From the IMG/VR virus record IMGVR_UViG_3300025168_000138, positions 1 through 48,840 of that record: 48,840 bases of DNA, one strand, 5' to 3'. Positions 33,669 through 48,840 of the stretch are shown piece by piece (position 1 is the stretch's first letter; each line of letters opens with the position of its first letter). The DNA comes from a virus. The notes beneath the pieces are model-generated. The model was not told the origin of the DNA, did no database searches, and was given only the letters and a program-made list of their open reading frames with translations. The translations under genes were made by a program, and so were the position numbers.

Positions 33669-33685
33669 AGGGGGCAATGCCCCCT
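33669..33685. terminator. Bidirectional intrinsic terminator between convergent operons
   Basis: A 7-bp GC-rich hairpin (AGGGGGC, loop AAT, GCCCCCT) lies in the 35-base gap between the convergent stops at 33655 and 33691. On the - strand it is followed by TTTTTG, a good U-tract. On the + strand it is followed by ATGTTTT, a weaker one. A second GGGGGC at 33655-33660 could compete for the same CCCCC. It probably ends both the late and the early/middle transcripts. Confidence 0.85.
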
Positions 33686-34161: not shown

Positions 34162-34922
34162 AGTAGTTTTTTTAGTTTATAAATTTCAGGATCATACGTT
34201 TCTGTTTCTATATTTATTATACTTAGCAGCTCTGACTCTTCTGGCAAGTCCGCATTCAGTCGTTTCTCTAACAATTTCCTACGTTTGTCACTTTTAAATA
34301 TAATCTGACCCATCTCATCTTCTATATCAGCATTATGAAAATCTAGAATGTCTAATTTATAGTCTCTAGTAAACTTAGAATATTTACCTAGTATAAATGA
34401 TCTGTATTCTTTTTTATATCCTTTAGGAATATTAAAAACAAACATTACATAATTAGGGCTAGGATCATACCTACGTTTAAAGAATTCTAAACCTTTCATA
34501 ATTTTCTCAAACTTAATATATCTCGTATCAGAAGACCATCTATACAGCAAAGCGATACAGTTTGTATCCTCTGGAGTACCTATAAAGCAATTTACAAAAA
34601 AAGTATTCCAAAAATATAATTTTTTATTACCAGGTAACATAGGCATTACAAATGTTGTTGCCTTTGTTCTTTTAGCAATTGATACATCATAAGCTAGTAA
34701 CCGGGTATCTTCACCGATCACTGACTCTATAATGTTAACTTTATATTTTGTTTTCTTTATAGGAACCGTAAACCCTAGTTTTATATTAAGGTTATTAGGT
34801 CCTTCTAAAGCTACAATTTTATTGTCTTTTTTAATAGCTTTTAAGCAATTTACATTTCCTGTAATTCTAAATGTCAATGCATTTACAGGTTTGTATACTA
34901 AATTGTCACACTCTACTACCAT
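34158..34922 (-). CDS. Hypothetical protein in the replication operon
   Basis: A 254-residue soluble protein, not recognised. The N-terminal 110 residues are beta-rich; the middle carries LLYRWSSDTRYIKFEKIMKG and FFKRRYDPSPNYVMFVFNIP; the C-terminus is charged and helical. There are no nucleotide-binding or nuclease motifs. It overlaps the exonuclease gene by a few bases upstream and the Nmad1-like gene by an ATGA downstream, so it is co-translated with DNA-metabolism genes. A role in replication or host takeover is only suggested by that context. Confidence 0.45.
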   Translation of the reverse strand: MVVECDNLVYKPVNALTFRITGNVNCLKAIKKDNKIVALEGPNNLNIKLGFTVPIKKTKYKVNIIESVIGEDTRLLAYDVSIAKRTKATTFVMPMLPGNKKLYFWNTFFVNCFIGTPEDTNCIALLYRWSSDTRYIKFEKIMKGLEFFKRRYDPSPNYVMFVFNIPKGYKKEYRSFILGKYSKFTRDYKLDILDFHNADIEDEMGQIIFKSDKRRKLLEKRLNADLPEESELLSIINIETETYDPEIYKLKKLL

Positions 34923-35668
34923 AGTTCTTCTTGATTTGTAAATTCAACTTTATGTGTTATTAAATCAGGTAACTCTATACCAGTTTCTCTTAGCACATCT
35001 TCTTTAGTCTTAAGTATATATATCAACTTAAAGGTCTCTGTAAATCTATGAATTCCTTCAGAGTTTCCAAACTTTTCTATGTATTTATTTAAAACAAAAG
35101 TTGGCATTTCTGTAGGAATTACATTTTCTAACCAAGTATCAGCTGTTTTAGGACCTACTTTAGGGATCCCAGTAATACCATCTGTAGAGTCACCCATTAG
35201 TACTTGTTTCCATAAAAATGTTATTGCTTGATTCTCATCAACAGTTATAAATTCACCTTTACCATAGTTATAATTAGATACTTTGTTTTGGTATAACACA
35301 TCCTTGTCAGGACTACATATAATAGTCTTCATAGGATCATGATACACTGATACTAAGTCATCTGCTTCTAGTTCTGGTATAAATGTAAATTTCCAGTGTT
35401 GTTTTAAATACTCTTTAATTGCAGGGAATATAATTGGTAATGCATCTCGTTTTCTGTTATGTTTGTAGGGTTTTGTAGTTGCTATATTATATCTAAAGCA
35501 TTTACCTTGTGTTAGAAAACCGGCATAATATTTACATTCTGTTATATTTAACATTTGATTAATTCTCATGTCAATACCTGCTATTGCTTCTTCTAGTGTA
35601 TCTTTTTTCATCTCATAATAGATTAAACTGTCACCATCTATCAGAGCTATTCTATCTTCTCTATTCAT
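34916..35668 (-). CDS. 5'-3' exonuclease / flap endonuclease (FEN family)
   Basis: A 250-residue structure-specific 5' nuclease that would remove RNA primers and flaps or degrade DNA 5' to 3'. Metal ligands typical of the family are visible: IDGDSLIYY (D11, D13), ELEADDL (E101, D103, D104), SPDKDVL (D121, D123) and MGDSTDGITGIPKVGPKTA (D160, D163), which also forms the helix-3-turn-helix DNA-binding loop. The length equals stand-alone phage FENs (T5/T7 types), so in this phage the 5' nuclease seems to be a separate chain from the family A polymerase at the right end of the window. It follows the structured RNA at 35697-35786. Confidence 0.88.
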   Translation of the reverse strand: MNREDRIALIDGDSLIYYEMKKDTLEEAIAGIDMRINQMLNITECKYYAGFLTQGKCFRYNIATTKPYKHNRKRDALPIIFPAIKEYLKQHWKFTFIPELEADDLVSVYHDPMKTIICSPDKDVLYQNKVSNYNYGKGEFITVDENQAITFLWKQVLMGDSTDGITGIPKVGPKTADTWLENVIPTEMPTFVLNKYIEKFGNSEGIHRFTETFKLIYILKTKEDVLRETGIELPDLITHKVEFTNQEELW

Positions 35669-35696
35669 ATTTTAAAATTTAGGGTTATCGATATAA

Positions 35697-35786
35697 AGGG
35701 GGTGGATATAAAAATCTAATTAAAAACAGGAAGCTCTTATACTCCCGGTTAAAGTTGGTTGGCAAAACGCCGTTCGTCCACCCCCT
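35697..35786 (-). ncRNA. Structured RNA element A (GUAUAAGAGC hairpin)
   Basis: A 90-nt fold in the 142-base gap between the rIIB-like and exonuclease genes. The outer stem is a perfect 10-bp pair (AGGGGGTGGA 35697-35706 with TCCACCCCCT 35777-35786). The inner hairpin in - strand RNA is GGGAG, loop UAUAAGAG, CUUCC, at 35729-35746. An extra small hairpin GGC-GUUUU-GCC lies 5' of it. The loop and closing pair are identical to element C at 48578-48645, while both stems differ but still pair. One inner pair is G-U on the - strand and would be A-C on the + strand, so the RNA is read from the - strand. Possible roles: 5'-UTR regulator of the exonuclease, RNA processing site, or ribozyme-like element. 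No known family was recognised. Confidence 0.65.
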
Positions 35787-35810
35787 CATATCTTACCAAT
35801 TAAACACTAG

Positions 35811-36980
35811 CTACAGAGCGTTTAGCTCAGCAACTTCCTTGTCACTTTGAGCTTTTTTATCAGCTCGCTCTTGGACAGCTTGGGCTCTCATATCGTCCCA
35901 CTCTGCATCTGTCATAGCTGCGTAACTAGAGCTATGGTAAATAGATCCATTCACACCTACTAAGGAAGAATGAACAAAATATTGCTTACATCTAATAGCG
36001 CCATCTTCATCACAAGGCACAGCCCCGATATGCATAGGATCTACAAAGATGTTGTGAATTTCTCCACTATAAAAAGCAATATATTTTAACCCGCCGATGT
36101 GGAGCCCTTTAACGCATGACGTCGTATCATTTACGTTAACCTGGCTCCAATCAGCAAGTTTGTGAGTACAACCCACTTTGATAAAATGTTGTGGTTTTGC
36201 GTAACCATTTGGGCCCTCGCAAAAGAATGCATCACCGCTACTACCCATAATAGCTGGTTCAAACAATCTATCTTCTACGTGTTCTGGTAAACCATCACCT
36301 TCTATCTCACCAGTGTCAACATTGAACGTTCTTTTATAACGATCTTCTTGCTCACCGGTTTCTGAATTAAACTTGTGCAGCACTTCTCTAGAGACTTTAT
36401 AACCATTGAGTAATCCCTCATGGGTGATTTTCATTTGGTACATTGTTGCTCTTTTGCTGGCTGCATCTTCGCTTAATCCATGATTTTCCATAAGATCTTC
36501 TTTATGTTTAGGATGCACATATTGCATATTAACAAAATTAAAGAATCTATTACAGAAATCTTCTCCATAACCTTGCTTCATCTTTCTCCACAAGATTGGA
36601 TTTCTCAACCAACGTGTCCACATCTTTACTAGGGGCATAAAGTCTAACTCTTTATCTAAAGAGTCAAAAATTCTATCTACAAGCGCTTGTGGCATAGGTA
36701 TAGTAGATACTACACCCTCGTGCTTAAGAAAGAACTCTCCTGTTCCTTTGTTTACATGTATATACGGACATTTGGTTTCGATTGTCTTTGTATAATCTAC
36801 TATAGTTAACGTTTCAAAGGCTTTTATTACTTCATTGTAGTTTTCTATAGATGTTACATTGTTTGCTTGTTGAGCAAGCTCTTGCATTTGATCATACAGC
36901 TCTTTACTGTATTCTACTGTGAATGGATGCTCTCCATAATTACCACAGATTTTGTTTTCTATTACATTAATTGTTATCAT
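35811..36980 (-). CDS. rIIB: RIIB-like protein
   Basis: A 389-residue protein resembling the phage RIIB family. The C-terminal third carries the typical cluster: SSGDAFFCEGPNG, DTTSCVKGLHIGGLKYI (the 'C-xxGLHxG' block) and GAVPCDEDGAIRC, followed by a charged helical tail. The N-terminal part has a beta strand set and the segment LRNPILWRKMKQGYGEDF. In T4 the rIIA/rIIB pair is known for lysis timing and resistance to the lambda Rex exclusion system, with an unresolved mechanism at the membrane. Here it lies two genes from rIIA, separated by the radical SAM gene. An ACCAATTAAA leader sits 8 bases before the ATG. Confidence 0.7.
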   Translation of the reverse strand: MITINVIENKICGNYGEHPFTVEYSKELYDQMQELAQQANNVTSIENYNEVIKAFETLTIVDYTKTIETKCPYIHVNKGTGEFFLKHEGVVSTIPMPQALVDRIFDSLDKELDFMPLVKMWTRWLRNPILWRKMKQGYGEDFCNRFFNFVNMQYVHPKHKEDLMENHGLSEDAASKRATMYQMKITHEGLLNGYKVSREVLHKFNSETGEQEDRYKRTFNVDTGEIEGDGLPEHVEDRLFEPAIMGSSGDAFFCEGPNGYAKPQHFIKVGCTHKLADWSQVNVNDTTSCVKGLHIGGLKYIAFYSGEIHNIFVDPMHIGAVPCDEDGAIRCKQYFVHSSLVGVNGSIYHSSSYAAMTDAEWDDMRAQAVQERADKKAQSDKEVAELNAL

Positions 36981-36988
36981 ATTATCTA

Positions 36989-36998
36989 TTTAATTGGT
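36989..36998 (-). promoter_or_regulatory. ACCAATTAAA leader motif before rIIB
   Basis: The decamer ACCAATTAAA on the - strand ends 8 bases before the ATG of the rIIB-like gene. The same spacing and nearly the same sequence occur before rIIA and the SSB gene. Confidence 0.5.
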
Positions 36999-37861
36999 TA
37001 AAAAATATACCTTATAGTATTCCAAGGTATTTTGGCTTCATGTATCTGTCTAAATTGTTTAATATATTCAGACTTCATTCCTAGTTTGTATCTTATATTT
37101 TCTCCACCATACTGAGAACGTTTAACTTCTTGCTTATCAAGAACCCATAGATCTACTTCTGTTTCTGGATGTCTTTCTAAGTTTACAACGTGCTTTTTAA
37201 AGTTATGTGTCAAGAATATACATTCTGATAAAACTTGGTCTTTGTAACTAACATAATCATTCATCATATCAAATATATACTCGTAGTCTTGTAACCAACC
37301 ATCGTATACAATAATAGGACTATAATTTACATGTACATCATACCCAGCATCTATAAATGCATCAATAGCTTTTATTCTATCAATGATCTTAGAGGTACCG
37401 CGCTCATGTAAATCTGATTTATGTTGAGGCATTAGACTAAATCTAATACGTATTTTCCCTTCCGGGTTAAAATTAATTAGCATTGGGTTTACAAATTTAG
37501 TTGCAAAACTACCCATAGCTACAGGATGATCTCTAAAGAATTTAAATATTCTTTCCCAGTCATGATGTCTAGCATGCAATGCAAAATCTTCATTACAGCT
37601 AATATCATAAGTGGTAAATTCTGGATGCGTCTGATTAGGTTTGTCTACTGGTGTAAAGTATGCATGATTATTAACTTCTGTCAATATATCACCCGTGTTT
37701 ACAGCAACAGACAAACCTTTATCTTTATGACGTTTCATATAACAGTAAGAACAATTATATAAACAACCATAACCAAAGCTAGGAGAAATAAAATCCGTCG
37801 ACCTACCAGAGGGACGGATCTTAAAAGTTTTTCTAATGTCTTTAGTTATTAACTTTCCCAT
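36998..37861 (-). CDS. Spore-photoproduct-lyase-like radical SAM protein
   Basis: A 287-residue radical SAM protein, probably a DNA photoproduct lyase. The cluster motif GCLYNCSYCY gives C33, C37 and C40, the CxxxCxxC that binds the 4Fe-4S cluster and S-adenosylmethionine. The segment YDISCNEDFALH puts a further cysteine at 89, about 49 residues after the last cluster cysteine, close to where spore photoproduct lyase keeps its hydrogen-donor cysteine. The C-terminus (KIPWNTIRYIF) is also of the lyase type. The enzyme would reverse UV-induced thymine lesions without excision; an alternative is another radical SAM enzyme acting on nucleic acid. Its start overlaps the end of rIIA by 13 bases, so it is embedded in an rIIA-rIIB operon. 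Confidence 0.65.
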   Translation of the reverse strand: MGKLITKDIRKTFKIRPSGRSTDFISPSFGYGCLYNCSYCYMKRHKDKGLSVAVNTGDILTEVNNHAYFTPVDKPNQTHPEFTTYDISCNEDFALHARHHDWERIFKFFRDHPVAMGSFATKFVNPMLINFNPEGKIRIRFSLMPQHKSDLHERGTSKIIDRIKAIDAFIDAGYDVHVNYSPIIVYDGWLQDYEYIFDMMNDYVSYKDQVLSECIFLTHNFKKHVVNLERHPETEVDLWVLDKQEVKRSQYGGENIRYKLGMKSEYIKQFRQIHEAKIPWNTIRYIF

Positions 37862-40602
37862 ATTTCTCTAGATTTAGCTCTTAAATAAACTCTAACTTCT
37901 TTTTCAAGAGCTGAAGACATATCACAGTCTCTACTCTCAAGGCAGTCTAGTTCATCTAACAGCGGTTTAACTTCTTCTGCAAATTCTAGTATATTATCAT
38001 ACTTAGCTAATATAGTCAAATCAGCAGCTTTAGCATTACTAATATCTGCCAAAACAAACAGTTCTTTAGACTTTTGCGCTATCAAATCTTCGTCATCACA
38101 CTCTGTCATAAACTTTTGAAATTCAAACAACTTATCCATATGTTCAAGTATAGCTGGTGCTATTTCTTTTACTCTTCTGTAATCATATTCTGAATAATTA
38201 TCATTCCTCAAATCCATGAGCTCACAATAATCTTCTTGCAATGTAGGGTGTATGCATTTAAGTCCCTGCAGAAATTTAAAGTTATTTATCTTTTCTAGTT
38301 TATGCGCTGTGTAATATTTAATAAGTGAATTATCCATAGTATATGCGTTGTTATCTGTTAGTTGTAAAAATAGTTCATCAATGTGTTTGACATTTGGGTT
38401 TTGTGTAATAAACTTAACCTTATCTTGACTAACACGGATCAGCTGTGGTGTGTCCCATCCTTGCACAGGATTAACTGCCCAATCATAATACTCACCTTTA
38501 CTACTACGAGTCATAAATCTAACAGGAGCATGCTCGTACCAAAATATAGGGTAATTATGAGATTCTCTTTGATGACCATTGTCAGACCAAGAAGCGCTTG
38601 GATAAACTTCTTTAAAATGTGGAACAACGTGTGTAAGTAATAAAGCAGCAGCTTTCATTTTACCTTCGTCTTCTTTAGTACAGTAGTAAATACGATTAGA
38701 ACTAGACATAAGATCTTTAGCTCTAGGCTCTATCTTTTCTAAGGTTAAATTATCATCTTTTAAATGATCAAACCTAAGAGTATATGCCACCATTCTTTTC
38801 TCTATCTCACGTCGTTCTGCAGCTGAAAGATTACTAAACTTAGATTTCTCTTCGTCTTCTGCTTCTATCTCTTTACAGTCTATAATAAACTCCTCTGGTA
38901 CTTCTACAATATCATAGTTTTTATACCACTCAGATTTACTAATAAAGTTTAAGATAGCAGCTCTTTTAGCAGTTACCCTAGCCTTTTCTTTTAAGAGGAA
39001 CATCTGCGCATCAGTTGTACTTGCTTTAAGTATATCTTGACGATAAAATGCATCAAGATCTACTAAACTATACGTACAAACTTTATGTCTGTTTTGGTTA
39101 TTGTCTTGATCTAGTTGTCTTAGATATACATCTTTATACTTACTAAACTGCTCTTCTCTAGCATAAAAATGCTTAGCATCAAAACTATGCCAGTCTTTTA
39201 CATTCTCACGCTCTATGGTATTATTAATTTCTTGAGGTGTCATAAGTTTTAAGCCTTCAAACAATTTAGTTATATGACTATATTTAATTCTAGGATCAGG
39301 TCCAAACTTAGGTTTAATCTCATTTTTATCAATAATACGTGAAATTCTAGATAGTATTCTATCATCAGTATCTCCAGCTATAATAGATCTACATTTATCA
39401 ATCCATTTTAGAAAGTCAGTTTCTTGTAGCTGTTTTTCTACCATTGTACTAGCTTCTTCTGCAGCTGCTTTAATTACACCTTTAATATAATTTTTAGTTG
39501 ACTCATTCCATATAACTTTCTCACGAGATGGCGTAACATCTACACCCTCTTGTAATATAGTTTCAGTGCCATCTTCATTAATAACTACTTGTCTAGCTGG
39601 GCATTTGAAAGCAACACAACCATACATCTGCTCCATTTCTAATTCTTTGAAATCAATATAGCCATAGTTAATACCTGTAGAAGCTTCTTTATCTTTTACA
39701 AGAACAATATGAGGCTTACTAAAATAATAACTATCACCAACTATTATATTTTTAGAATTATAAAGTACATCAGTTTTAAAGTTAACTTTTCTCTCATATC
39801 CGTCATCTTCGTTATCAATAATTTTAAAATTAACGTTATCAAAGTACATCAGCTGCTCTTCAATAGCTTCTTCAAACTTATTTCTGTTATGGCGTTTTAC
39901 ACCAAACGATACAGTAGTTTGATTCTTACCACCATAACGCTCATAATATACTTTAGCACCATCACTAAAAGTAATAAATGGATTAGGTTTACCTTCTTTT
40001 ACATTAAAAGCTGGTATAATAAAATCAGTTTTGTAATTATAACAATTACATTTAAACCTCATACCATTATATACAGTCTCTATAGTGTAAAAATCTACAC
40101 CGGTTGATAGTGCAGCTTTTGCACCAAGACCAAAGGCACCAAAATTCTCACTAGTATTTCTTTTTGTAGAATAACCCAGTTCTAATATACCTTCTAAACG
40201 TCTTGCTCCAATACCTACACCATAGTCAGTAACTGAAAATATATCACAATATCCAAGACCTTCGTTTTGGTTGTATACTAGATCTATATGATCTGCTACA
40301 TGATTTAGTGCAGCTATATTGTAATAACTTGCATCAAAATTACTATCTTCATACTGAGCACCGTGGCGTTCAATATAGTAGTCTTCAACTTTCTTTTCAC
40401 CCCTTAGTATTTCTACAGCCACTTCTTTCTCACGTTGAGAGTCACATGCATTGGTAACAAGTTCTCTAATCGTAGATTGTATTGGCATAGAATACTGTGT
40501 AGACTGTAAAATGTCAAACACCATTTTCTCAGCGCCTTTGTTAATTTTTTTAGCTATGCCGGCGCTACCTTGCATAGGCTTATCAATAGTTTTAATACTC
40601 AT
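37849..40602 (-). CDS. rIIA: RIIA-like GHKL ATPase
   Basis: A 917-residue protein with a clear GHKL (gyrase/Hsp90/histidine kinase/MutL) ATP-binding fold at the N-terminus: IRELVTNACDSQ (E47, N51, D54), SVTDYGVGIG (D126, G128, G130) and NFGAFGLGAKAAL (G155, G158, G160). All residues needed for Mg-ATP binding are present. The remaining 650 residues are helical and charged, without a recognised domain. Length and context (rIIB-like gene two genes downstream) point to the T4 RIIA family. The protein is longer than T4 RIIA. The leader carries ACCAATTAAA 8 bases before the ATG. Confidence 0.75.
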   Translation of the reverse strand: MSIKTIDKPMQGSAGIAKKINKGAEKMVFDILQSTQYSMPIQSTIRELVTNACDSQREKEVAVEILRGEKKVEDYYIERHGAQYEDSNFDASYYNIAALNHVADHIDLVYNQNEGLGYCDIFSVTDYGVGIGARRLEGILELGYSTKRNTSENFGAFGLGAKAALSTGVDFYTIETVYNGMRFKCNCYNYKTDFIIPAFNVKEGKPNPFITFSDGAKVYYERYGGKNQTTVSFGVKRHNRNKFEEAIEEQLMYFDNVNFKIIDNEDDGYERKVNFKTDVLYNSKNIIVGDSYYFSKPHIVLVKDKEASTGINYGYIDFKELEMEQMYGCVAFKCPARQVVINEDGTETILQEGVDVTPSREKVIWNESTKNYIKGVIKAAAEEASTMVEKQLQETDFLKWIDKCRSIIAGDTDDRILSRISRIIDKNEIKPKFGPDPRIKYSHITKLFEGLKLMTPQEINNTIERENVKDWHSFDAKHFYAREEQFSKYKDVYLRQLDQDNNQNRHKVCTYSLVDLDAFYRQDILKASTTDAQMFLLKEKARVTAKRAAILNFISKSEWYKNYDIVEVPEEFIIDCKEIEAEDEEKSKFSNLSAAERREIEKRMVAYTLRFDHLKDDNLTLEKIEPRAKDLMSSSNRIYYCTKEDEGKMKAAALLLTHVVPHFKEVYPSASWSDNGHQRESHNYPIFWYEHAPVRFMTRSSKGEYYDWAVNPVQGWDTPQLIRVSQDKVKFITQNPNVKHIDELFLQLTDNNAYTMDNSLIKYYTAHKLEKINNFKFLQGLKCIHPTLQEDYCELMDLRNDNYSEYDYRRVKEIAPAILEHMDKLFEFQKFMTECDDEDLIAQKSKELFVLADISNAKAADLTILAKYDNILEFAEEVKPLLDELDCLESRDCDMSSALEKEVRVYLRAKSREIWES

Positions 40603-40610
40603 AATTTGTG

Positions 40611-40620
40611 TTTAATTGGT
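40611..40620 (-). promoter_or_regulatory. ACCAATTAAA leader motif before rIIA
   Basis: The - strand reads ACCAATTAAACAC, ending the decamer 8 bases before the rIIA ATG at 40602. A 13-base exact copy in the opposite orientation lies at 35795-35807, just after the rIIB stop. Confidence 0.5.
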
Positions 40621-40625
40621 TTATA

Positions 40626-40826
40626 TTAGTTTCCCATGTCACGCATCTCATCTGCTTGCGCTTCTGCAATGTCGTCTAGCCTTTGATTTCTATATTCATA
40701 GTTAACCATAGGTTCATCAAAATGTTCTTTACATTTGGGATTGTTACATTGGTACATCTCACACCCGCATGGGAGTGTTACTTCGCTGTATTCATAGCCA
40801 CAGCAAGGGCTAACATTATTAGCCAT
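40626..40826 (-). CDS. Small Cys-rich zinc-finger protein
   Basis: A 66-residue protein with about seven cysteines in the first 35 residues (SPCCGYEY, LPCGCEMYQC, NPKCKEHF), arranged as CxxC-like and CxC pairs plus a CxxxxC pair; these can bind one or two zinc ions. The rest is acidic and helical (DDIAEAQADEMRDMG). It is probably a DNA-, RNA- or protein-binding takeover factor; the partner is unknown. It sits between the structured gap 40856-40962 and rIIA and carries its own ACTAATTAAA leader. Confidence 0.6.
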   Translation of the reverse strand: MANNVSPCCGYEYSEVTLPCGCEMYQCNNPKCKEHFDEPMVNYEYRNQRLDDIAEAQADEMRDMGN

Positions 40827-40837
40827 AATTTAAAGTG

Positions 40838-40847
40838 TTTAATTAGT
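40838..40847 (-). promoter_or_regulatory. ACTAATTAAA leader motif before the zinc-finger gene
   Basis: The - strand decamer ACTAATTAAA, followed by CAC as in the rIIA leader, ends 11 bases before the ATG at 40826. Confidence 0.45.
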
Positions 40848-40855
40848 AAATAAAA

Positions 40856-40962
40856 AGGAAGGAGGGAAGGGCTTTTCAACCGTAATATATTTTATCCCTT
40901 TAATGCCTAGTTACGAGATGCATACCATGAATTACCATGCACATCTCCCGGCAGTCCAACCT
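40856..40962 (-). ncRNA. Structured intergenic element B (possible RNA)
   Basis: This gap between the resolvase stop and the zinc-finger start can fold on the - strand. A long-range stem AGGUUGGA with UCCUUCCU (two U-U mismatches) closes the element; inside, UGCC pairs with GGCA around a hairpin with the 6-bp stem GAGATG/CATCTC and an inner CATG/CATG; a second small AAGGG/CCCTT pair follows. It lacks the UAUAAGAG loop of elements A and C. The layout (5' strand at the stop codon, 3' strand before a U-rich stretch and the leader motif) is similar to theirs. It could be another RNA regulator or only a processing hairpin. Confidence 0.35.
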
Positions 40963-41411
40963 TATAATTGTTTGATTAGTTCTACCACTTCGTCTACTTG
41001 CTTTTTATTTCTAGGCATAAATAGAACATAGTGGTGATTGTTTTCTTTAAGATGTCTCTTAAATAGTTTCCATCTCAACGGAAAAGACTCATTGGCATAG
41101 CCTTTTGTTTCAATGATAAACTTACCATTAGGATCAACAAAATCTGGAGTATAAGTTATAGCCCGTATTTTGCTGCCCTTGTTATAAAGTTTTTTAGAGG
41201 TACCTTCATAACATGCTTGAGGGTATACCAAAGGATCAAAGATTGTAAATTTATGCTCTTCATATTGGACTTCCACATCAGCCTTTTTAAGTTCTTTATA
41301 ACAATAAAGTTCTAAATTAGATTGAAACGTTTTACCATCATAGTCACTTTTCTTAGCATTCCTTACTTTACTACGTCCAGGTTTACTTCTAACTTTTCTC
41401 TTCCAAGCCAT
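40962..41411 (-). CDS. T7 endonuclease I-like Holliday junction resolvase
   Basis: A 149-residue nuclease of the PD-(D/E)xK fold. The catalytic set is visible: E34 in SNLELYCYKEL, D90 in YTPDFVDPNG and E101-x-K103 in FIIETKGYA. The spacing D90 to E101-K103 and an early Glu match T7 gp3 endonuclease I (D55, E65, K67 with E20). The N-terminus is basic (KRKVRSKPGRSKVRNAKK), suitable for DNA binding. It would resolve branched DNA during replication and recombination, before packaging. Its start overlaps the end of the metallophosphoesterase gene by 23 bases. Confidence 0.75.
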   Translation of the reverse strand: MAWKRKVRSKPGRSKVRNAKKSDYDGKTFQSNLELYCYKELKKADVEVQYEEHKFTIFDPLVYPQACYEGTSKKLYNKGSKIRAITYTPDFVDPNGKFIIETKGYANESFPLRWKLFKRHLKENNHHYVLFMPRNKKQVDEVVELIKQL

Positions 41412-42558
41412 AGCTCATCACATTTGTTTGGAGGTACCCTTCCAGCCCTCTATTCTTACTCCATATAAAAGCTTGACCACATCTAAGTGTTCCTACATAG
41501 CCTTGTGTTTTATGCCAAGCATCGTTAGCACAAATAGATGGTATAAATCTAACTTTAGTTCCCATGTATTCATTAAGCATTTCTTTATGCTTATGTCCAC
41601 AATGTACTTCCCTAACTTTAGATCTACTCCACATAGCAGGTTGTTCTGTAGCAATTAAGAGTGGTAACTCTTGCGCTTTCTCCTTGTCTCCGTGTGTAAA
41701 CATGATCATATTTATACCATACTCATAATATTTACGTGAATCTAAACCATTGTCTATATTAACGTTTTTATTATTGTGATATAAAGCATCTAAAACTTCT
41801 CCTACATAAAACATACGCTCAAAATCATGATTACCTTGTATTACAACCACATCTACCGGGGCAAACTGTGTTAAATAATCAATTGCTTTTGTAACTAAAT
41901 GCCAGTACCCTCTAAAAGATTGACGCCATCGCATACTATCTTGTTGAGGTGTGCCTTTAGTTGTAGCTCTACTCATACCTTCTGAATTTAAACCATCATT
42001 ACCAACCGGTAATAAAAATCTCTCTATATTTAAACCATCTGCTTTCCTATGTAAATCTACAATAGCTTGCATATAATGCTTCTCTATAGCAGCAGAAGGT
42101 TCATCAGTAATTTTACCGTAGTGTATATCCGGAAGTGATATTTCATACAGTACAGGATCTTTTGGCTTTACATATTTAATCTTATTTACTTTAGGGGATC
42201 TATTTTTTATATAGTTTAGTAACTCATCTTTAACCTGGGGCTGTTCATGCCATTGGTTGTGTGTTACTATACTATAACGTTGTTCACCATTAAAGTTTTG
42301 CCAAAATTTAACAGACTTTACATCTGCCATTGTTAATCCGTTATCTAATAAATGTTTTGTAAAAGCCTGACTCTCGCCAAGCTCATGGCTATTATCATTG
42401 TTTATACGTTCTTGTACCCATTCTTCAGAGGTTACAAGTTTTTTACATTCTTTAATAATAGATGTTTCTACTTTCCATTTATCAGCTAGGAACTGTACTC
42501 CTTTTTTTAAGTATCCTTTCTTAATTCTTAATTTTTCAATAATTTCATCTCGTGTCAT
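41389..42558 (-). CDS. Calcineurin-like metallophosphoesterase with N-terminal HTH-like region
   Basis: A 389-residue protein. The phosphoesterase domain (about 135-340) has all family motifs: SLPDIHYG (D144, H146), PVGNDGLN (N187, D188), QGNHDFER (N243, H244, D245), FTHGDKE (H289) and HCGHKHKE (H322, H324). The set is complete, so it should bind two metals and hydrolyse phosphodiester or phosphomonoester bonds. The first 60 residues (KGVQFLADKWKVETSIIKECKKL) look like a helix-turn-helix. No SbcC-type partner is visible. Its place between primase and resolvase suggests a DNA nuclease or phosphatase in replication/recombination. It overlaps both neighbours. Confidence 0.75.
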   Translation of the reverse strand: MTRDEIIEKLRIKKGYLKKGVQFLADKWKVETSIIKECKKLVTSEEWVQERINNDNSHELGESQAFTKHLLDNGLTMADVKSVKFWQNFNGEQRYSIVTHNQWHEQPQVKDELLNYIKNRSPKVNKIKYVKPKDPVLYEISLPDIHYGKITDEPSAAIEKHYMQAIVDLHRKADGLNIERFLLPVGNDGLNSEGMSRATTKGTPQQDSMRWRQSFRGYWHLVTKAIDYLTQFAPVDVVVIQGNHDFERMFYVGEVLDALYHNNKNVNIDNGLDSRKYYEYGINMIMFTHGDKEKAQELPLLIATEQPAMWSRSKVREVHCGHKHKEMLNEYMGTKVRFIPSICANDAWHKTQGYVGTLRCGQAFIWSKNRGLEGYLQTNVMSYGLEEKS

Positions 42559-43546
42559 TTAGTATATTTTTAAGTTCAGTGAATCCACATGTCTTACTTA
42601 CTAGGTCTGATGGATCTTTAGACTGATAGTAATCAGGTATGCAAATGTTGTTAAAACCATATAAGTCACAAATCTTTTTAGCCATACTCTGGCCAGGGTT
42701 TGTAACCTTGTCGAAATCATTGTCGTATAAAATATCTATTTGGCTAAATCTTTCTTTTAGCTCATTCACTAGTTTATCTGAAGGTATTTGCATCTCACTC
42801 TGTAATGCGATTGCATGACTGCCTGCTGCATATAAACACATAACATCTTTAAGAGATGAAGTAATGATAAGTCTCTCACCTTTATACGGGAGTTGGTTAT
42901 AGCCTTGTACATCTGTCTTTTTTGTATTGCTTAACCACTTATTTGTTTCTTCATAAGGAGAATAAATTTTATATCGATTCTTGAATCTAAAGGCATAAGT
43001 TACTGATTTACAAGTAAATCTAGTACTGTTTACCCAGAAATGACTTATAGGTTCGACACCAAACATAGTTAATATTTTTTTACTGACAAAATATTTGCTC
43101 CAAAACTTTGCGTCGTCTCTAGTCCACTGTCTACGCTTCTTTTTAAGTATAACTTCAGTCTTAGTATAAGCTGGTGTTTTATTTTGTCTATAAGCCATAA
43201 GACCCATAGTAAATTTTATGCCATCTTTTTTAGAACTTAAGTTAAGATTAAAATCAGAATCGATAATGTTTAACGCAGAGTAAAAATCACAGCTGTATTT
43301 AAATTTTACATAATTAAAACAGTCAAACGTGTGATCAGGAGAACCAAAATCCTTATATAGTAACTTACCATTATACGGTACTATAGAAACTGTAGGTGAA
43401 TTATCTTGTCGAAGGTCACTCTTAAATTTCTTACCCAGTATTTTAAAGTTAGGGCAATAATACCTAAAAATGTCATACTCAGTAATTTTACCAAGTATGA
43501 CATCTGTATGTAGGTGATCGTTGCTGTCTCTACGATCTATAGCCAT
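42545..43546 (-). CDS. DnaG-like primase with degenerate zinc and TOPRIM motifs
   Basis: A 333-residue protein that should make RNA primers. The N-terminal part (about 25-85) follows the CHC2 zinc-ribbon layout (SDLRQDNSPTVSIVP, KLLYKDF, FDCFNYV) but the metal-binding Cys/His residues are gone. The TOPRIM part (about 223-320) keeps LYDNDFDK (D275, D277) and KDPSDLV, while the first motif reads IITSSLKDVM where the catalytic Glu of TOPRIM proteins is expected. Phage primases with a similar S-L-K-D motif are familiar to me, so it may still be active. It is one gene downstream of the SSB, in an operon with a DnaB-like helicase. Confidence 0.7.
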   Translation of the reverse strand: MAIDRRDSNDHLHTDVILGKITEYDIFRYYCPNFKILGKKFKSDLRQDNSPTVSIVPYNGKLLYKDFGSPDHTFDCFNYVKFKYSCDFYSALNIIDSDFNLNLSSKKDGIKFTMGLMAYRQNKTPAYTKTEVILKKKRRQWTRDDAKFWSKYFVSKKILTMFGVEPISHFWVNSTRFTCKSVTYAFRFKNRYKIYSPYEETNKWLSNTKKTDVQGYNQLPYKGERLIITSSLKDVMCLYAAGSHAIALQSEMQIPSDKLVNELKERFSQIDILYDNDFDKVTNPGQSMAKKICDLYGFNNICIPDYYQSKDPSDLVSKTCGFTELKNILNDTR

Positions 43547-44316
43547 TAGAAAGGACTAGCTTCTGCTGGTTCTGGTGTAGTCCAATCTTCAGTCTCTTGA
43601 ATAGTGTCTGGTGTAACTAGACTTACTGTTGAGACATGCTTACCCCACTTGAGGTCTGCATTAAAATCATGGTTTTTGAACTGAGAATACTCATCATTAA
43701 GAGCCTTAACAAATAAGTCATCTCTTTGAGGTTTAACTCTGCCAAAATAACCAGTGTAAATACCTTGATATTTATCATCTTTTACACCAATCAATACTCT
43801 AAGTTGATTATTTTTAAGTGCTGCAGCAAGAGTTTTAAGCTCTGTTACATTACCCGTTACAATATCACTCATAGTATCATAAAACACAGATCCACCTGCA
43901 GCTACGTTAGCCCAAGCTTTTGTAAACTCAATTAGTTCTCTCTCACCGTCATACGCTTTTCTTTCACCATCAGCTTTCCACCAGTCATAACTTGGTGCAT
44001 CATTTGACCATGTAGATTGACCTACATTGTTTAGCCATAGAAACTTACCAGTTTGAGATTGTTTAGTATTATTCTTTAAGAATAAATCTAATTTAAATTT
44101 ACCATCTTCGTTTGCAAGCCAGAACGTTACTTTATTCCACGCTTGATCGTTGCTAGTACCTGAGTATGCAGGTTCTTGCTTTACATTTACATCCATTGCA
44201 TGTAATTCTGCCATAGTAGGATTAACTGCTACAACATTTACATTTGTTAGACCTGAGTAGAATTCTCTACCTCCTCCTGATACTTCTTCAGTACTTGCAT
44301 TACTTTGTATTGCCAT
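43546..44316 (-). CDS. Putative single-stranded DNA-binding protein
   Basis: A 256-residue protein, beta-rich and soluble. A central part has many aromatic residues (KFLWLNNVGQSTW, PSYDWWKADGE, YQGIYTGYFGR), as needed for stacking on bases. The C-terminus is acidic and ends in aromatic Phe (EDWTTPEPAEASPF), like the protein-interaction tail of SSBs. It is larger than bacterial SSB, in the range of phage gp32-like proteins. No zinc motif is seen. The assignment rests on composition, tail and location between recombinase-like and primase genes. A variant of the leader motif (ACCAATAAAT) lies 8 bases upstream of the ATG. Confidence 0.6.
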   Translation of the reverse strand: MAIQSNASTEEVSGGGREFYSGLTNVNVVAVNPTMAELHAMDVNVKQEPAYSGTSNDQAWNKVTFWLANEDGKFKLDLFLKNNTKQSQTGKFLWLNNVGQSTWSNDAPSYDWWKADGERKAYDGERELIEFTKAWANVAAGGSVFYDTMSDIVTGNVTELKTLAAALKNNQLRVLIGVKDDKYQGIYTGYFGRVKPQRDDLFVKALNDEYSQFKNHDFNADLKWGKHVSTVSLVTPDTIQETEDWTTPEPAEASPF

Positions 44317-44324
44317 AATTAATT

Positions 44325-44334
44325 ATTTATTGGT
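44325..44334 (-). promoter_or_regulatory. ACCAATAAAT leader motif variant before the SSB gene
   Basis: A variant decamer on the - strand ends 8 bases before the ATG at 44316, the same spacing as before rIIA and rIIB. Confidence 0.4.
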
Positions 44335-44336
44335 TA

Positions 44337-44687
44337 TTAAAATTGTGTTAGTTCTCCTTTATGATCTAGTCCTTCTTCTATTCTTGTTACATTGTCAAAA
44401 CTTTCTTGAGTCTGTACAGGAATACTAGTTTGATTAGGATCTACTTGTTCTACTGTGTCATCTACAAACGTAAAAGATAATTTTCTAACTTTTTTAGCTT
44501 TTTTACCTTTTAGTGCAGGATGCATAAACATTTGTTTTACTTCCCAAGCTTCTAAATTATATTTAGCCTGAATAGCAGATCTATCTATACCATCTTCTAG
44601 ATCTTTTATAATCATAGTAGTAGTAATTTGTGCTGGTGTTTCTTGTTTTACAACCTCAGCATTGGTTGGCTCATTTGCGTCTATCAT
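44337..44687 (-). CDS. Small hypothetical protein, recombination cluster
   Basis: A 116-residue protein with three parts: an acidic Thr/Glu-rich N-terminus, a short helical domain (IIKDLEDGIDRSAIQAKYNLEAWEVKQMF) that could be a small helix-turn-helix, and a basic patch (LKGKKAKKVRKLSF) followed by an acidic, Gln/Thr-rich tail. It lies between the Sak4-like ATPase and the SSB, so it may be a cofactor of recombination or replication. No family was recognised. Confidence 0.5.
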   Translation of the reverse strand: MIDANEPTNAEVVKQETPAQITTTMIIKDLEDGIDRSAIQAKYNLEAWEVKQMFMHPALKGKKAKKVRKLSFTFVDDTVEQVDPNQTSIPVQTQESFDNVTRIEEGLDHKGELTQF

Positions 44688-44698
44688 AGTTTTTGTGA

Positions 44699-44708
44699 TT
44701 TAATTAGT
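44699..44708 (-). promoter_or_regulatory. ACTAATTAAA leader motif before the 116-aa gene
   Basis: The - strand decamer ACTAATTAAA overlaps the stop codon of the Sak4-like gene and ends 11 bases before the next ATG, as in the zinc-finger leader. Confidence 0.45.
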
Positions 44709-45411
44709 CTATAAAAATTTGATCCCAAGCTAAAGGCATGGTTGCGCCTTTTAAATGTGCACATCTAGAACCTGCAGTTACATCGTCCATAGAGTTAAAA
44801 GAAATCATTGTCTCTTCTCCTTCCCTGTATATATAACCAACAGCATCTGCATTAGCACATGTAATTTGTTTAATTTTACCAGTAAGGTCTAAGTCTTTTA
44901 CTGCAACTTCCTTACCTTGTTTCTCTAGCATTTTATCTTTTAGATGACCTACTAGTATGACGTGATCAGCTAGTTTATTAAGCTTATCCATCCACTCTTT
45001 GTATGCCATACGTAAATATAAATAGCCAGCACCGTTAGGTAAAGACAACACAGACAGATTCTCATTCTTACTGTCAAAGTTTTTACCCATAGGTGTTTTC
45101 TTGTATATTGCTTTAGCATAGCCCTCACACCATTCTTCTAGTTTAGATATAGTGTCAATTGCTACGTATTTATACGGTTTACCTGCTTTTATAATCTCAC
45201 TCCCAATCTTCTGCAGGTCTGCAAGACTATTAGCTTTAATTTTTAGTGCATCTACCATATCAGAACCGTCTTCTAGATCTATAAGCAAACAGTTGTTTAG
45301 TAGAGATAGCATTGTAGTCTTACCTATCTTAGGTGGACCATATATTATCATATTCTTAGGCGATTTACGGCTAGCCTTAACCTTTTCTTTTGGTAATTCC
45401 ATAGTTTCCAT
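44704..45411 (-). CDS. Sak4-like / RecA-fold single-strand annealing ATPase
   Basis: A 235-residue P-loop ATPase. Walker A is YGPPKIGKTT (G25-T33), Walker B is KYVAIDTISK (D86), and the segment LIDLEDGSDMVDAL is typical of Sak4-type phage recombinases, which belong to the RecA/Rad51 fold and work with an SSB. The C-terminal part (NADAVGYIYREGEETMISF, GSRCAHLKG) also fits that group. It would promote annealing or strand exchange between replicating phage genomes. The SSB-like gene two genes downstream supports this. The ATG is five bases after the stop of the 46-aa gene. Confidence 0.7.
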   Translation of the reverse strand: METMELPKEKVKASRKSPKNMIIYGPPKIGKTTMLSLLNNCLLIDLEDGSDMVDALKIKANSLADLQKIGSEIIKAGKPYKYVAIDTISKLEEWCEGYAKAIYKKTPMGKNFDSKNENLSVLSLPNGAGYLYLRMAYKEWMDKLNKLADHVILVGHLKDKMLEKQGKEVAVKDLDLTGKIKQITCANADAVGYIYREGEETMISFNSMDDVTAGSRCAHLKGATMPLAWDQIFID

Positions 45412-45416
45412 ATAAA

Positions 45417-45557
45417 TTAGTTTTCAAACCACACAGCATGAACTTTACACCCATGCTTAGTAGTATTTATTAATATTCGTTTTCTTACTTTTTGCTCTTT
45501 AGTTTGGCTAGCATCCATATACTTAGGATTCTTGCTGTTTAATTTTCTTTTCTTCAT
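45417..45557 (-). CDS. Small basic protein, 46 aa
   Basis: A short gene of 47 codons that fills the otherwise empty gap between the helicase and the Sak4-like gene. The start ATG overlaps the helicase TGA (ATGA), and the TAA lies five bases before the next ATG, so the spacing is that of a real co-translated gene. The product begins MKKRKLNSKNPKYMDASQ and ends CKVHAVWFEN; it is very basic in the first 30 residues. It could bind nucleic acid or the helicase. No family was recognised. Confidence 0.6.
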   Translation of the reverse strand: MKKRKLNSKNPKYMDASQTKEQKVRKRILINTTKHGCKVHAVWFEN

Positions 45558-46510
45558 TCTTTTATTCTCTCTTTAATTGTAAATGTTGACATCTCCGCTT
45601 CATACGGGATCATACCTAGCAAGCCATCACGGTTCTTCTCCATGTGTACTGCTAGTAAACCACGAGGATCTTCGTTACAATATGTATCTGTAATACCATA
45701 CAAATCATGTGGTCTTTGTAACATCATAACAACATGTGCATCCTGACCAATAGAGTCACCGCCAAACAAATCTGTTAGCAATGGCTGATACTGTGCCTTA
45801 GCACGATGTTCTTGTTCTATGTTACGGTTTAGTTGAGATAGTAATATATTTATAGTCCCCATTTTAGCTTGCATCCACATACAACCTTTTGATACTTCGT
45901 TAAGTTTTTGTAATTCTTGCTCTCTACTACTTAGTATAAGTCTAGAATGATCAAACACATTAACAATAGTATAATCTGGCCGTTTATTACCTATGTCTAC
46001 ATTAGCTGCTTTAATATAGTCCATATCTCTAGGAACACTATTAAAGTATATAGGGTAGTTACTATACTTTAAAACTTCTTCTTTAAACTTTACATACTCT
46101 TCTTGTTCTAACTTCTTCTCTACAGATAGTAATTCACCTACCTGTTTATTTGTACCTTTTGAGCCTGCACGCAATATCTGCTGATAGCCGGGCATCTCGA
46201 AAGACCAATACAATACAAGTAATTTTTTACCTATATTGTTATCCAATAAATCAAAGATCAATTGGTTACTAAACGCTGATTTACCTACACCTGGACGACC
46301 TGCAATTACATACATCTTACCCGGTTGTAAACCACCTAGTAAGTTCTTGTTTAATCTTGCCCATTTGGTAGGATATACCATACGTCTACCATTCATACCG
46401 TCAGTTACCTGGTGCAGTGATGCACTGATAGCTTTCCTTATGCTCTTAAATCCCCTATCTTTAAAGGGATCGTGTAATTCTGTTGGTTTTTTGTTTTGTG
46501 TCATTTTCAT
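45554..46510 (-). CDS. DnaB-like replicative helicase (SF4), short form
   Basis: A 318-residue RecA-fold hexameric helicase. Motifs in order: Walker A AGRPGVGKS (K77, S78), catalytic Glu in YWSFEMPG (E105), a Walker B position at NVFDHSRL (D187), the QLNR block (Q226) and the Arg-finger region EKNRDGLLG (R294). The DnaB N-terminal primase-interaction domain is missing, so it is much shorter than bacterial DnaB (about 450-470 residues). The ATG at 46510 overlaps the previous gene by 50 bases; a second in-frame ATG at 46504 is equally possible. It would unwind the fork together with the DnaG-like primase and family A polymerase. Confidence 0.85.
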   Translation of the reverse strand: MKMTQNKKPTELHDPFKDRGFKSIRKAISASLHQVTDGMNGRRMVYPTKWARLNKNLLGGLQPGKMYVIAGRPGVGKSAFSNQLIFDLLDNNIGKKLLVLYWSFEMPGYQQILRAGSKGTNKQVGELLSVEKKLEQEEYVKFKEEVLKYSNYPIYFNSVPRDMDYIKAANVDIGNKRPDYTIVNVFDHSRLILSSREQELQKLNEVSKGCMWMQAKMGTINILLSQLNRNIEQEHRAKAQYQPLLTDLFGGDSIGQDAHVVMMLQRPHDLYGITDTYCNEDPRGLLAVHMEKNRDGLLGMIPYEAEMSTFTIKERIKE

Positions 46511-47012
46511 CTAAGTTTTCATACTTTTCCCAAGTATGGTTATTAATCCATGTTTCTAAGTTTTGCATATATGAAAGATTATGTCTTTCTATTGTAAGTT
46601 GTGTATCTAAACACTTCATTATGTGCTTGTGTTTATATAGCTTATCCCTTACTATCTTTTTATATTTTGCTTTGCATTTTGCATTAGCCTTAGAATCTGG
46701 ATCCTTAGCATGTAACACTCTAACACCACGATCAGTACTCATTACTTTCATAGGATACGTAGATATAAGCTCAGCAAACATCTGATCAAAATTTGAAGAG
46801 AAAAGATCTATGAACTCTTGTCTTATAAAATGTTGATCAGGTGTTTCACCTAGCTTAATATACCCTTCTTCTTGTAACTTTTCTAAATTTGGTTTAAGAT
46901 TAAGATTGTTTAAATAGGTATAACTTTCCTTGTGTATTATATAAAGATATAAATAGTCGTCAGCAGACATACCTGTCTGTTCTAACACTTCAAAATCTAT
47001 ATCAACATTCAT
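46461..47012 (-). CDS. Hypothetical protein upstream of the helicase
   Basis: A 183-residue soluble protein. An acidic helical N-terminus (LEQTGMSADDYLYLYIIHK) leads through a winged-helix-like segment (LEKLQEEGYIKLGETPDQHFIRQEFIDLF) to a Lys/Cys-containing basic helix (SKANAKCKAKYKKIVRDKLYKHK) and an aromatic C-terminus. The winged-helix look plus its 50-base overlap with the helicase gene suggest a DNA-binding or helicase-loading role. This is inference; no family was recognised. Confidence 0.5.
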   Translation of the reverse strand: MNVDIDFEVLEQTGMSADDYLYLYIIHKESYTYLNNLNLKPNLEKLQEEGYIKLGETPDQHFIRQEFIDLFSSNFDQMFAELISTYPMKVMSTDRGVRVLHAKDPDSKANAKCKAKYKKIVRDKLYKHKHIMKCLDTQLTIERHNLSYMQNLETWINNHTWEKYENLDENDTKQKTNRITRSL

Positions 47013-47108
47013 ATGGCAGTAAAGGTTATAAAAAGTTCTGTTATACTAATTTTTAAATCTAAAGCAAATATAATAAATTCTGTTATCATCTACAAATTAT
47101 TTGTATAA

Positions 47109-48278
47109 TTATTGCCAAACAATATTTTTCAGACTCTTTGTGGCTTTCTTGAGCCACTTTTCTTCCTGAGAATCAGCAACATAGATAATTACTATCTTAC
47201 CAATTTTACCCTCTTGAAAACGTATCAATCGTCCTACACGCTGTATCATAGACAAAGATTTGCTTGTAATACCACATAAAATACCCATGTTTGCGTTAGG
47301 AACATCAAAGCCTTGATTAAGCGCTTTTGTAGAAAACAACACATTTATATCATCATTCTTAAACGAATCTAATGCTAATTGTTTTTGTTTCTTAGTCTTT
47401 TTAGAGTGATAAGCCATACCATTTGGTATAGAAGCACATAATTTATCTGTAAAATCATTTGCACCACCAAACACTAGTATTTTCTTATCTGTATTTGCTG
47501 CATATATCTGTTGAAACTTATTTATTTTATTCTCTGCAAAATCTACAATCTGTTTACGTGCTCTAATGAGTCTATAAAACTGTACTGCTGCTTGCATTTG
47601 TACACCGGTTGCAGACTTGCTAGCTAAAATTCTCTTTGCTTCGTTAAATGCATCAAAATTACCTAGCTGATATTTCCAATAAATAAACTTATTATTTATC
47701 TTTTTATATTCTTCTGCCTCTTTATCTGTAAGCTTAACAGGTACACATGTAATCTCATATGGACTTACAATACCTAGCTTTACACATTTATCTAGTGTAA
47801 TCTTGTACGCTGTTGGCGCTATTTTATCTAGGAGCTCTTTGTACTCAATCTCTTCAGGTAAGGTTGCAGTCATACACAATAACATATTAAACTTATTGTT
47901 TTCAAAGAACTTACGATACTCTGGTGATAAACCTAAATGTATCTCATCACATACAACTATATTATAATGTTTATTTTTTAGTTTGTATGCACTCTGGTAG
48001 CACATAATTTCTACATTCTCATGTGATACACCCCATTTATCAAATTCTTCTATAAACTGATCTTGTAATTGTACAGTAGGGACAAGAATCAATGCATTAC
48101 CACCATCTTTAAGTGCATATTGCACAGCAAGGACACCAACTCTAGATTTACCAAAGCCGGTACCTGCAATTACAGAGCCTATAAATCCTTGGCCTGCCCA
48201 TTTGTTTAGAGCACTTTTTTGCTCAATGTCTCTTATTTTATTTATTTCACTCACGACGTCTTCATTTTTATTTACCAT
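47109..48278 (-). CDS. SF2 DNA/RNA helicase (DEIH box, UvsW/XPB-like)
   Basis: A 389-residue superfamily 2 helicase. Motif I GTGFGKS (K44), motif Ia ILVPTVQLQDQF, motif II VVCDEIH (D111, E112, H114), motif III MTATLP, motif V STKALNQGFDVP and motif VI QRVGRLIR (Q346, R350, R353) are all present. The compact size is like phage UvsW-type or XPB-core helicases, which remodel replication forks and R-loops. An AACAGGAAAGTATG start context gives a purine-rich site, unusual in this window. It overlaps the upstream 90-aa gene by seven bases; a 96-base gap without an obvious gene lies downstream. Confidence 0.85.
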   Translation of the reverse strand: MVNKNEDVVSEINKIRDIEQKSALNKWAGQGFIGSVIAGTGFGKSRVGVLAVQYALKDGGNALILVPTVQLQDQFIEEFDKWGVSHENVEIMCYQSAYKLKNKHYNIVVCDEIHLGLSPEYRKFFENNKFNMLLCMTATLPEEIEYKELLDKIAPTAYKITLDKCVKLGIVSPYEITCVPVKLTDKEAEEYKKINNKFIYWKYQLGNFDAFNEAKRILASKSATGVQMQAAVQFYRLIRARKQIVDFAENKINKFQQIYAANTDKKILVFGGANDFTDKLCASIPNGMAYHSKKTKKQKQLALDSFKNDDINVLFSTKALNQGFDVPNANMGILCGITSKSLSMIQRVGRLIRFQEGKIGKIVIIYVADSQEEKWLKKATKSLKNIVWQ

Positions 48279-48544
48279 ACTTTCCTGTTATTTTTTAATT
48301 TATATTTAGTCATATTATTTGCCTTCATAATAGATTTATAGTTTAACGGTGGGACATAATGAGTAGGCGCAAGTACAAACTTACTATAGTTTGTATCATT
48401 ATATTTATATCTCTTACATCTAACCTCTTGCTTACCGCTATACTTAAACCAATCATTCATATCAACAACTTTAATTGCATGTAAATCTTTTAAACACTGT
48501 TCTTGTTTAATCTCTTCTATTAAATATTTACTAAGATCTTTCAT
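48272..48544 (-). CDS. Small hypothetical protein, 90 aa
   Basis: A 90-residue basic, Tyr/Lys-rich protein, first gene after the polymerase and element C. An early acidic helix (IEEIKQEQCLKDLHAIKVVDMNDW) is followed by a basic part (QEVRCKRYKYNDTNYSKF, MTKYKLKNNRKVW). There is no known motif. It overlaps the SF2 helicase start by seven bases, so the two are probably translated together. Function unknown. Confidence 0.5.
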   Translation of the reverse strand: MKDLSKYLIEEIKQEQCLKDLHAIKVVDMNDWFKYSGKQEVRCKRYKYNDTNYSKFVLAPTHYVPPLNYKSIMKANNMTKYKLKNNRKVW

Positions 48545-48577
48545 ATATATATATTTAGTTTTAGTTTATAAATAAAC

Positions 48578-48645
48578 ATGAGTGAGGCAAAACATTTAAT
48601 ATTATGGACGCTCTTATACATCCGTTAGATTAGGACCTCACTCAT
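48578..48645 (-). ncRNA. Structured RNA element C (GUAUAAGAGC hairpin)
   Basis: A 68-nt fold starting two bases after the polymerase stop. The outer stem is a perfect 10-bp pair (ATGAGTGAGG 48578-48587 with CCTCACTCAT 48636-48645). The inner hairpin in - strand RNA is GGAUG, loop UAUAAGAG, CGUCC, at 48606-48623. It shares with element A the UAAC just upstream of the hairpin, the apex GUAUAAGAGC and an AT-rich 3' arm. One inner pair is U-G on the - strand but would be C-A on the + strand, so the - strand is the transcribed one. It lies in the 5' region of the 90-aa/SF2 helicase pair. Confidence 0.65.
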
Positions 48646-48647
48646 AC

Positions 48648-48840
48648 TTATTTTTCCCAGCAATTACTCACTGTTACTTCGGCTTTTAATAAGCCATTTG
48701 TTACTATCTCTAGTGCAGCTTGTTCCATTAACTCTTTCATTTTCGTTGACCACCATTCTATATATTCATTTTTACATATAGTGTCAATTTGATCATGTAC
48801 AGTCATTACTATTTTAACAGGCACATCAAAGTCTTTAATA
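48648..48840 (-). CDS. Family A DNA polymerase, C-terminal fragment
   Basis: The right edge cuts this gene; only the last 63 residues are visible, ending at TAA 48648-48650. They read as the end of a Pol I-type polymerase: VMTVHDQID is motif C, with the His-Asp that binds the catalytic metal, followed by a helix (KMKELMEQAALEIV) and the terminal strand with VTVSNCWEK, parallel to the 'V-x-xGxNWxxxK' end of Pol I. The usual motif C Glu (HDE) is Gln here. It begins the visible part of the leftward replication operon, and would work with the separate FEN-type nuclease at 34916-35668. Confidence 0.75.
   Translation of the reverse strand, partial: IKDFDVPVKIVMTVHDQIDTICKNEYIEWWSTKMKELMEQAALEIVTNGLLKAEVTVSNCWEK

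Follow-up and report, generated by a model that had tools for sequence, protein, structure and literature searches.

Short palindromic elements of the REP/MITE-like and double-hairpin types are mobile in bacteria and organelles; they are non-coding, form hairpins and are found at non-homologous intergenic sites. In riboswitches with terminator expression platforms, a structured core is coupled to a terminator. Comparative genomics of metagenomes has also produced candidate structured RNAs that are intergenic, supported by covariation, largely environmental and of unknown function (Weinberg et al. 2010, PMC2864571). Herein, two intergenic elements, A and C, were analyzed in a 48,840-nt stretch of viral DNA (the window, meaning the whole stretch analyzed). 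The comparison gives good support to the view that A and C are members of one family of structured RNA, apparently undescribed, which occupies the loop of a terminator-like hairpin.

The window comes from an uncultured phage, probably of marine origin, and no close cultured relative was found. One strand carries large structural ORFs and the other the replication genes, a layout that recalls crAss-like phages, as a likeness only. The two convergent gene arms are separated by a short GC-rich hairpin (33669-33685) with a U-rich tail on either side, the arrangement expected of a bidirectional terminator. A spore photoproduct lyase-like gene (radical SAM DNA repair; 36998-37861, - strand) sits between the rIIA- and rIIB-like genes. 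The elements and the genes around them are listed below, where P1 is the long closing stem, P2 and P3 are the inner hairpins, and R1 is a covariance model built from A- and C-type members.

34916..35668, - strand: 5'-3' exonuclease gene, downstream of A (phrog_107, 7e-43; Pfam 5_3_exonuc under its cut-off)
35690..35792, - strand: element A, the complete terminator-like hairpin, whose loop holds the structured module (fold z -5.2; R1 107.8 bits; homologous site in relatives)
35697..35706, - strand: A, P1 3' arm UCCACCCCCU, then UUAUAUC
35709..35726, - strand: A, conserved 3' strand UUUUUAAUUAGAUUUUUA, the A-type counterpart of UUAAUAUUAAAUGUUU (invariant columns in alignments A3/A4)
35729..35746, - strand: A, hairpin P3, GGGAG-UAUAAGAG-CUUCC (compensatory changes in relatives)
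35761..35771, - strand: A, hairpin P2, GGC-GUUUU-GCC (present in every A-type and P2-only member)
35777..35786, - strand: A, P1 5' arm AGGGGGUGGA (perfect pairing with 35697-35706; A-U/G-C change in L014)
35811..36980, - strand: rIIB-like protein gene, upstream of A (phrog_609, 3e-8)
47109..48278, - strand: helicase gene, second downstream of C (phrog_16, 3e-40)
48272..48544, - strand: 90-aa ORF without a family, downstream of C
48570..48653, - strand: element C, terminator-like hairpin with module, beginning at the DNA polymerase stop codon (fold z -4.6; R1 56.9 bits)
48578..48587, - strand: C, P1 3' arm CCUCACUCAU, then GUUUAUUU
48589..48604, - strand: C, conserved 3' strand UAAUAUUAAAUGUUUU (invariant core in alignments A3, A4 and A9)
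48606..48623, - strand: C, hairpin P3, GGAUG-UAUAAGAG-CGUCC
48636..48645, - strand: C, P1 5' arm AUGAGUGAGG (perfect pairing with 48578-48587)
48648..48839, - strand: DNA polymerase gene, C-terminal end, upstream of C (phrog_17, 4e-5)

The initial annotation had described a perfect 10-bp outer stem in each element, and both stems were verified (AGGGGGUGGA/UCCACCCCCU in A, AUGAGUGAGG/CCUCACUCAU in C). The P1 stem of A is extended by GAUAU/AUAUC (35792-35788 with 35694-35690), and that of C reaches about 19 bp with G-U pairs. Relatives of C were found in L093, L094, L105, L107 and L248; L105 retains the C-type stem as AUAAGUAAGG/CCUUACUUGU. The GGC-GUUUU-GCC hairpin (P2) is present in A and absent from C. 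The shared apex of the inner hairpin, GUAUAAGAGC, was also as described, and its copies in A (35742-35733) and C (48619-48610) are the only exact ones in the window. With one mismatch allowed, this 10-mer is no more frequent in the window than expected by chance, so the weight of evidence falls on the folds and the relatives. A mere chance resemblance of two AT-rich spacers would be consistent with the 10-mer frequency, but it is contradicted by the fold z-scores, the dozens of relatives and the strong covariation, and can be set aside with near certainty. Compared with dinucleotide shuffles, none of 200 was as good as A (z -5.2), and one of 200 was as good as C (z -4.6).

Further copies, sought by covariance model as the initial annotation had proposed, were found in other phages. 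The R1 search of related contigs returned additional members, and pattern and covariance-model searches together brought the family to about 90 distinct members. These come from uncultured viral contigs and occupy about a dozen types of intergenic position. Two pattern scans had returned 119 and 92 contig stretches, of which only part were true members on inspection. The consensus reads P1 - [P2] - joining strand with YAAY - [P3, loop UAAGA] - UUAAUAUUAAAUGUUU - P1', in which the sequence of P1 is specific to the site and P2 and P3 are each optional. P2-only forms are found in L254, L256 and L266, and in L246 an A-like P2 is joined to a C-like core. A second model, R2, was built from another subtype (P2 GGGAAUAAUCCC, short P3) and recovered subtypes outside its training (L246, L234, L303, L387 and L105).

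No meaningful match was found in Rfam 15 (4227 models, among them the known small ribozymes and riboswitches) with the window arm, a P2-only member and a P2+P3 member as queries, and the hits listed were far under the cut-offs. A pattern scan of bacterial genomes, for the P2-containing form only, gave 31 matches, none with a convincing closing stem. Cultured phages of the collection searched had no DNA match to the D- or C-type cores, and A and the P2-only form gave only weak matches there, taken as chance. No description of the family was found in the literature, within open-access publications. There are large catalogues of candidate viral RNAs, and the family may already be entered somewhere without a name. 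The view of a new structured RNA thus stands, with many copies in other phages, covariation in all three helices, a G-U excess specific to one strand (both described below) and no Rfam family.

The same results bear on a small self-cleaving ribozyme, or a nuclease processing site, that would separate cistrons. The size, the three-helix shape, the strongly conserved unpaired residues and the intercistronic position would all suit such an RNA. However, the Rfam ribozyme families were unmatched, and many members lack P2 or P3, which would be unusual for a catalytic core. This explanation is considered improbable.

Two copies in a single contig, when found, differed in subtype: A and C occur together in the window and in the contigs of L003 and L014, and A- and D-type members in those of L095 and L104. 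A stable small RNA, or an sRNA derived from a 3' UTR, might act in trans, since the closed hairpin after a gene is stable and the conserved unpaired strand could pair elsewhere; two different copies per genome would then need a shared role, and we regard this possibility as very improbable.

Covariation was measured on 38 distinct members aligned to R2, in which 94% of cells were paired. Double-sided changes were counted in 112 cells, compared with 29.6 +/- 5.3 after shuffling, and the covariation score was 0.554, compared with at most 0.08 with slid partners. The R2 alignment was built on the structure and is biased in its favour; two MAFFT alignments that were not structure-fitted gave covariation in the same direction. 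The MAFFT alignments A1, A3 and A5 misalign the unrelated outer stems, and the conclusions are based on alignments A2, A8 and A9. Covariation was seen in all three helices, P1, P2 and P3, and the absence of significant covariation, which the initial annotation had named as a refutation, did not arise. The changes in the inner stem recur in relatives as GGGAG/CUUCC, GGGUG/CAUCC, GGAUG/CGUCC and GGGGG/CUUCC. G-U pairs outnumbered A-C pairs by 58 to 3. This indicates that the gene-sense RNA strand is under selection, in agreement with the earlier reading of the RNA from the - strand. The unpaired UAAGA and AUUAAAUGUUU are also conserved, for which simple stem pairing provides no explanation. A pairing of the UAAGA loop with CUUA of the 5' joining strand was judged by eye and rejected in view of the invariant loop and the tight geometry.

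An automated scan listed about 94 candidate elements, a few spurious and many of them homologous copies at one site. Because most counted members are homologous copies at few sites, the counts are not independent. The upstream gene was on the same strand in 87 of these candidates and on the opposite strand in 4. The median distance from the element to the upstream stop codon was 1 nt, with 63 of 87 within -10 to 30 nt. The 8 nt 3' of the GC-rich arm were 75% U and 19% A (82 elements); the U tract is interrupted in A (UUUAUAUC) and C (AUGUUUAU) and is weaker there than in the family overall. The position at the stop codon and the U-rich tail after the GC arm indicate that P1 resembles an intrinsic terminator. 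Two hallmarks of such terminators are met, namely a GC-rich stem (P1 in all members) and a U-rich tract (across the 82 elements). A short loop, another hallmark, is lacking, as the loop of about 40-75 nt holds P2/P3; P1 was not listed by a terminator scan restricted to loops of 3-8 nt. It is inferred that P1 acts as a terminator or 3'-end protector, for which there are no transcription or termination data.

The initial annotation had placed the elements before an exonuclease and a helicase gene pair. A does precede the exonuclease gene, and C precedes the 90-aa ORF and then the helicase gene, but the family is not tied to these neighbours. The genes downstream at different sites include the exonuclease, the helicase ORF, a primase, the portal region and small ORFs; the flanking genes have no common function, and some elements sit between convergent genes. 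These data were weighed against a ligand-binding riboswitch, in which the core would be an aptamer and P1 the terminator under its control. A compact conserved core within a terminator-like stem is what such a switch would look like. A consistent function of the controlled genes, expected of a riboswitch, is not met, as the downstream genes are unrelated; no downstream gene can be controlled between convergent genes, and P2 and P3 are each dispensable. The riboswitch is considered improbable.

The site of A was traced in relatives by a search with its neighbouring exonuclease, which gave 80 viral-contig loci. In the rIIB/exonuclease spacer of the nearer relatives, the hairpin base GATAT-GGGGG / CCCCC-TTATATC is often retained and the loop is variable: it is plain in L028, it holds the A module in the window, L003, L014 and L015, and it holds several others elsewhere. 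One of these is a second loop module, GGUUAGUAAUUUAAUUAAUAACU...GGUUAUACUUUGUG...AAUUACAAUUCC, found in L013 (2905-2970), L016, L020, L029 and L236 (1347-1412). This L013-type loop, apparently unrelated to the A/C family, is at the rIIB/exonuclease site in L013, L016 and L020 and in a different spacer in L236, so the exchange of loops may extend beyond a single RNA family. The L013-type loop was considered as an antisense form of the A/C family from opposite-strand R1 hits (E about 0.0007-0.02) and rejected, the hits consisting of AT-rich matches and a generic stem.

Several side observations concern the same kind of hairpin. Other unrelated loops were seen at the rIIB/exonuclease site in L004, L010, L017, L025, L031, L036, L040 and L044, and in L126 an unrelated loop was seen in the same kind of hairpin upstream of a helicase. 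The L044/L048 loop contains CCUAAC and a hairpin with loop ACAUAAGAG, and is possibly a distant cousin. Just 5' of the A hairpin, the motif GTGTTTAATTGRT (window 35795-35806) is conserved in many of the loci L003-L048, also in relatives with a different upstream gene; it is possibly a promoter or other signal. A long intergenic spacer at 40827-40961 (- strand) contains nested hairpins and ends in a U-rich tail. Its whole fold was no better than chance (z -1.2), and it is not a member of the A/C family. In L528 a plain terminator occupies the corresponding spacer, and in L236 an L013-type loop does.

A motif search located the A module in other intergenic spacers as well, where the outer stems differ in sequence but are likewise self-complementary. 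In L095 it follows a 224-aa gene in a replication cluster (called ssb-like by position only), where most relatives have a plain terminator-like hairpin. In L087 it follows GroEL, and in L088 and L104 it precedes a primase-like gene, which we take to resemble VirE-type primases. Between the window and the 108-kb contig of L095, the only matches were a 396-nt stretch (71%) and the module itself (93-95%); the DnaB proteins are 28% identical, and no similarity was seen for the neighbouring proteins that were compared. Element C is the sole match between the window and the 28.6-kb contig of L246 (87% over 67 nt). L527, which has the same metagenome number as L003, matched the pieces of the L003 contig in a 95-nt element at 95% and in another 27 nt. 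Its flanks are about 73% shared with L088, whereas its module is 95% identical to that of L003 and 87% to that of L088. Conversely, the exonuclease genes of the window and L003 are 95.6% identical, with modules of only 87%. Genomes that are otherwise unrelated carry nearly identical copies at sites that are not homologous, which is a mark of a mobile element. At the level of sequence comparison, these data show that the module, about 78 nt for the A type, has been exchanged horizontally as a compact unit between otherwise unrelated phages. No mobility enzyme, terminal repeats or target duplication were seen on inspection, not systematic, of occupied and empty sites. The initial annotation had included neither this movement nor the terminator-like nature of P1 nor the additional P2 hairpin of A.

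Such exchange also raises the possibility of a selfish mobile hairpin, a minimal element moved in trans and tolerated only in intergenic hairpin loops, with a fold that serves movement and no regulatory role. It would account for the clean transfer of a unit among unrelated phages and non-homologous sites, and for different modules replacing one another within one hairpin. The consistent sense orientation and the placement at stop codons would be unnecessary for it, the unsystematic inspection revealed no transposase, target duplication or insertion signature, and spread through phage recombination is possible. This explanation is considered unlikely, though not negligible.

The preferred reading is that this phage RNA family is an exchanged receptor in the loop of a terminator-like hairpin, which tunes termination, read-through or transcript stability; its probability is put at roughly 0.4, and neither the function nor the way the module moves has been proven. 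It starts from the observed fold, covariation, sense-strand selection, position, U-rich tail and horizontal exchange. The family would form the enlarged loop of an intrinsic-terminator-like hairpin, in most cases directly behind a stop codon, and P1 with its U-rich tail would serve as terminator or 3'-end protector. The core (P2, P3 with the UAAGA loop, and the UUAAUAUUAAAUGUUU strand) would act as the receptor of a factor, protein or otherwise, and that factor would tune termination, read-through or transcript stability. The module would pass as a unit between the hairpins of unrelated phages. Termination by P1, binding of a factor by the core and the way the unit moves are all inferred, and binding data are lacking as well. 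Against a receptor, no partner protein was identified; P2 or P3 is missing in some members, so not all parts are needed for one binding mode. A wider proposal, in which the terminator loops of these phages offer a niche where mobile structured RNAs dock, spread horizontally as units, replace each other in one hairpin and alter termination or transcript fate at each new site, is somewhat doubtful.

These findings suggest that terminator loops, to which little attention is usually paid, can house a structured RNA that is transferable. Its exchange is remarkably clean, the module being the only, or nearly the only, DNA shared in some genome comparisons. With occupied and empty versions of one site available, the function of the module can be tested in reporters without culturing the phage.

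Compared with the known systems, the A/C family resembles the candidates of Weinberg et al. 2010 (PMC2864571) in being intergenic, covariation-supported and largely from environmental sequence; unlike them, it lies in terminator loops, is mobile and matches none of the 4227 Rfam 15 models. With terminator-platform riboswitches it shares a structured core coupled to a terminator-like stem, but there is no common downstream gene function, elements also occur between convergent genes, and no alternative pairing was identified. Like mobile palindromic elements, the module is short, non-coding, hairpin-forming and located at non-homologous intergenic sites. In contrast to these elements, no mobility enzyme or target duplication was seen on inspection, strong selection acts at the RNA level on one strand, and only the inner module is shared while the outer stem belongs to the site. 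Intrinsic (rho-independent) terminators are matched by the GC-rich stem after a stop codon, the A-rich 5' side and the U-rich tail. The family differs from them in the broken U tract of A and C and in its loop, which is not a few nucleotides but about 40-75 nt with a covarying structure of its own.
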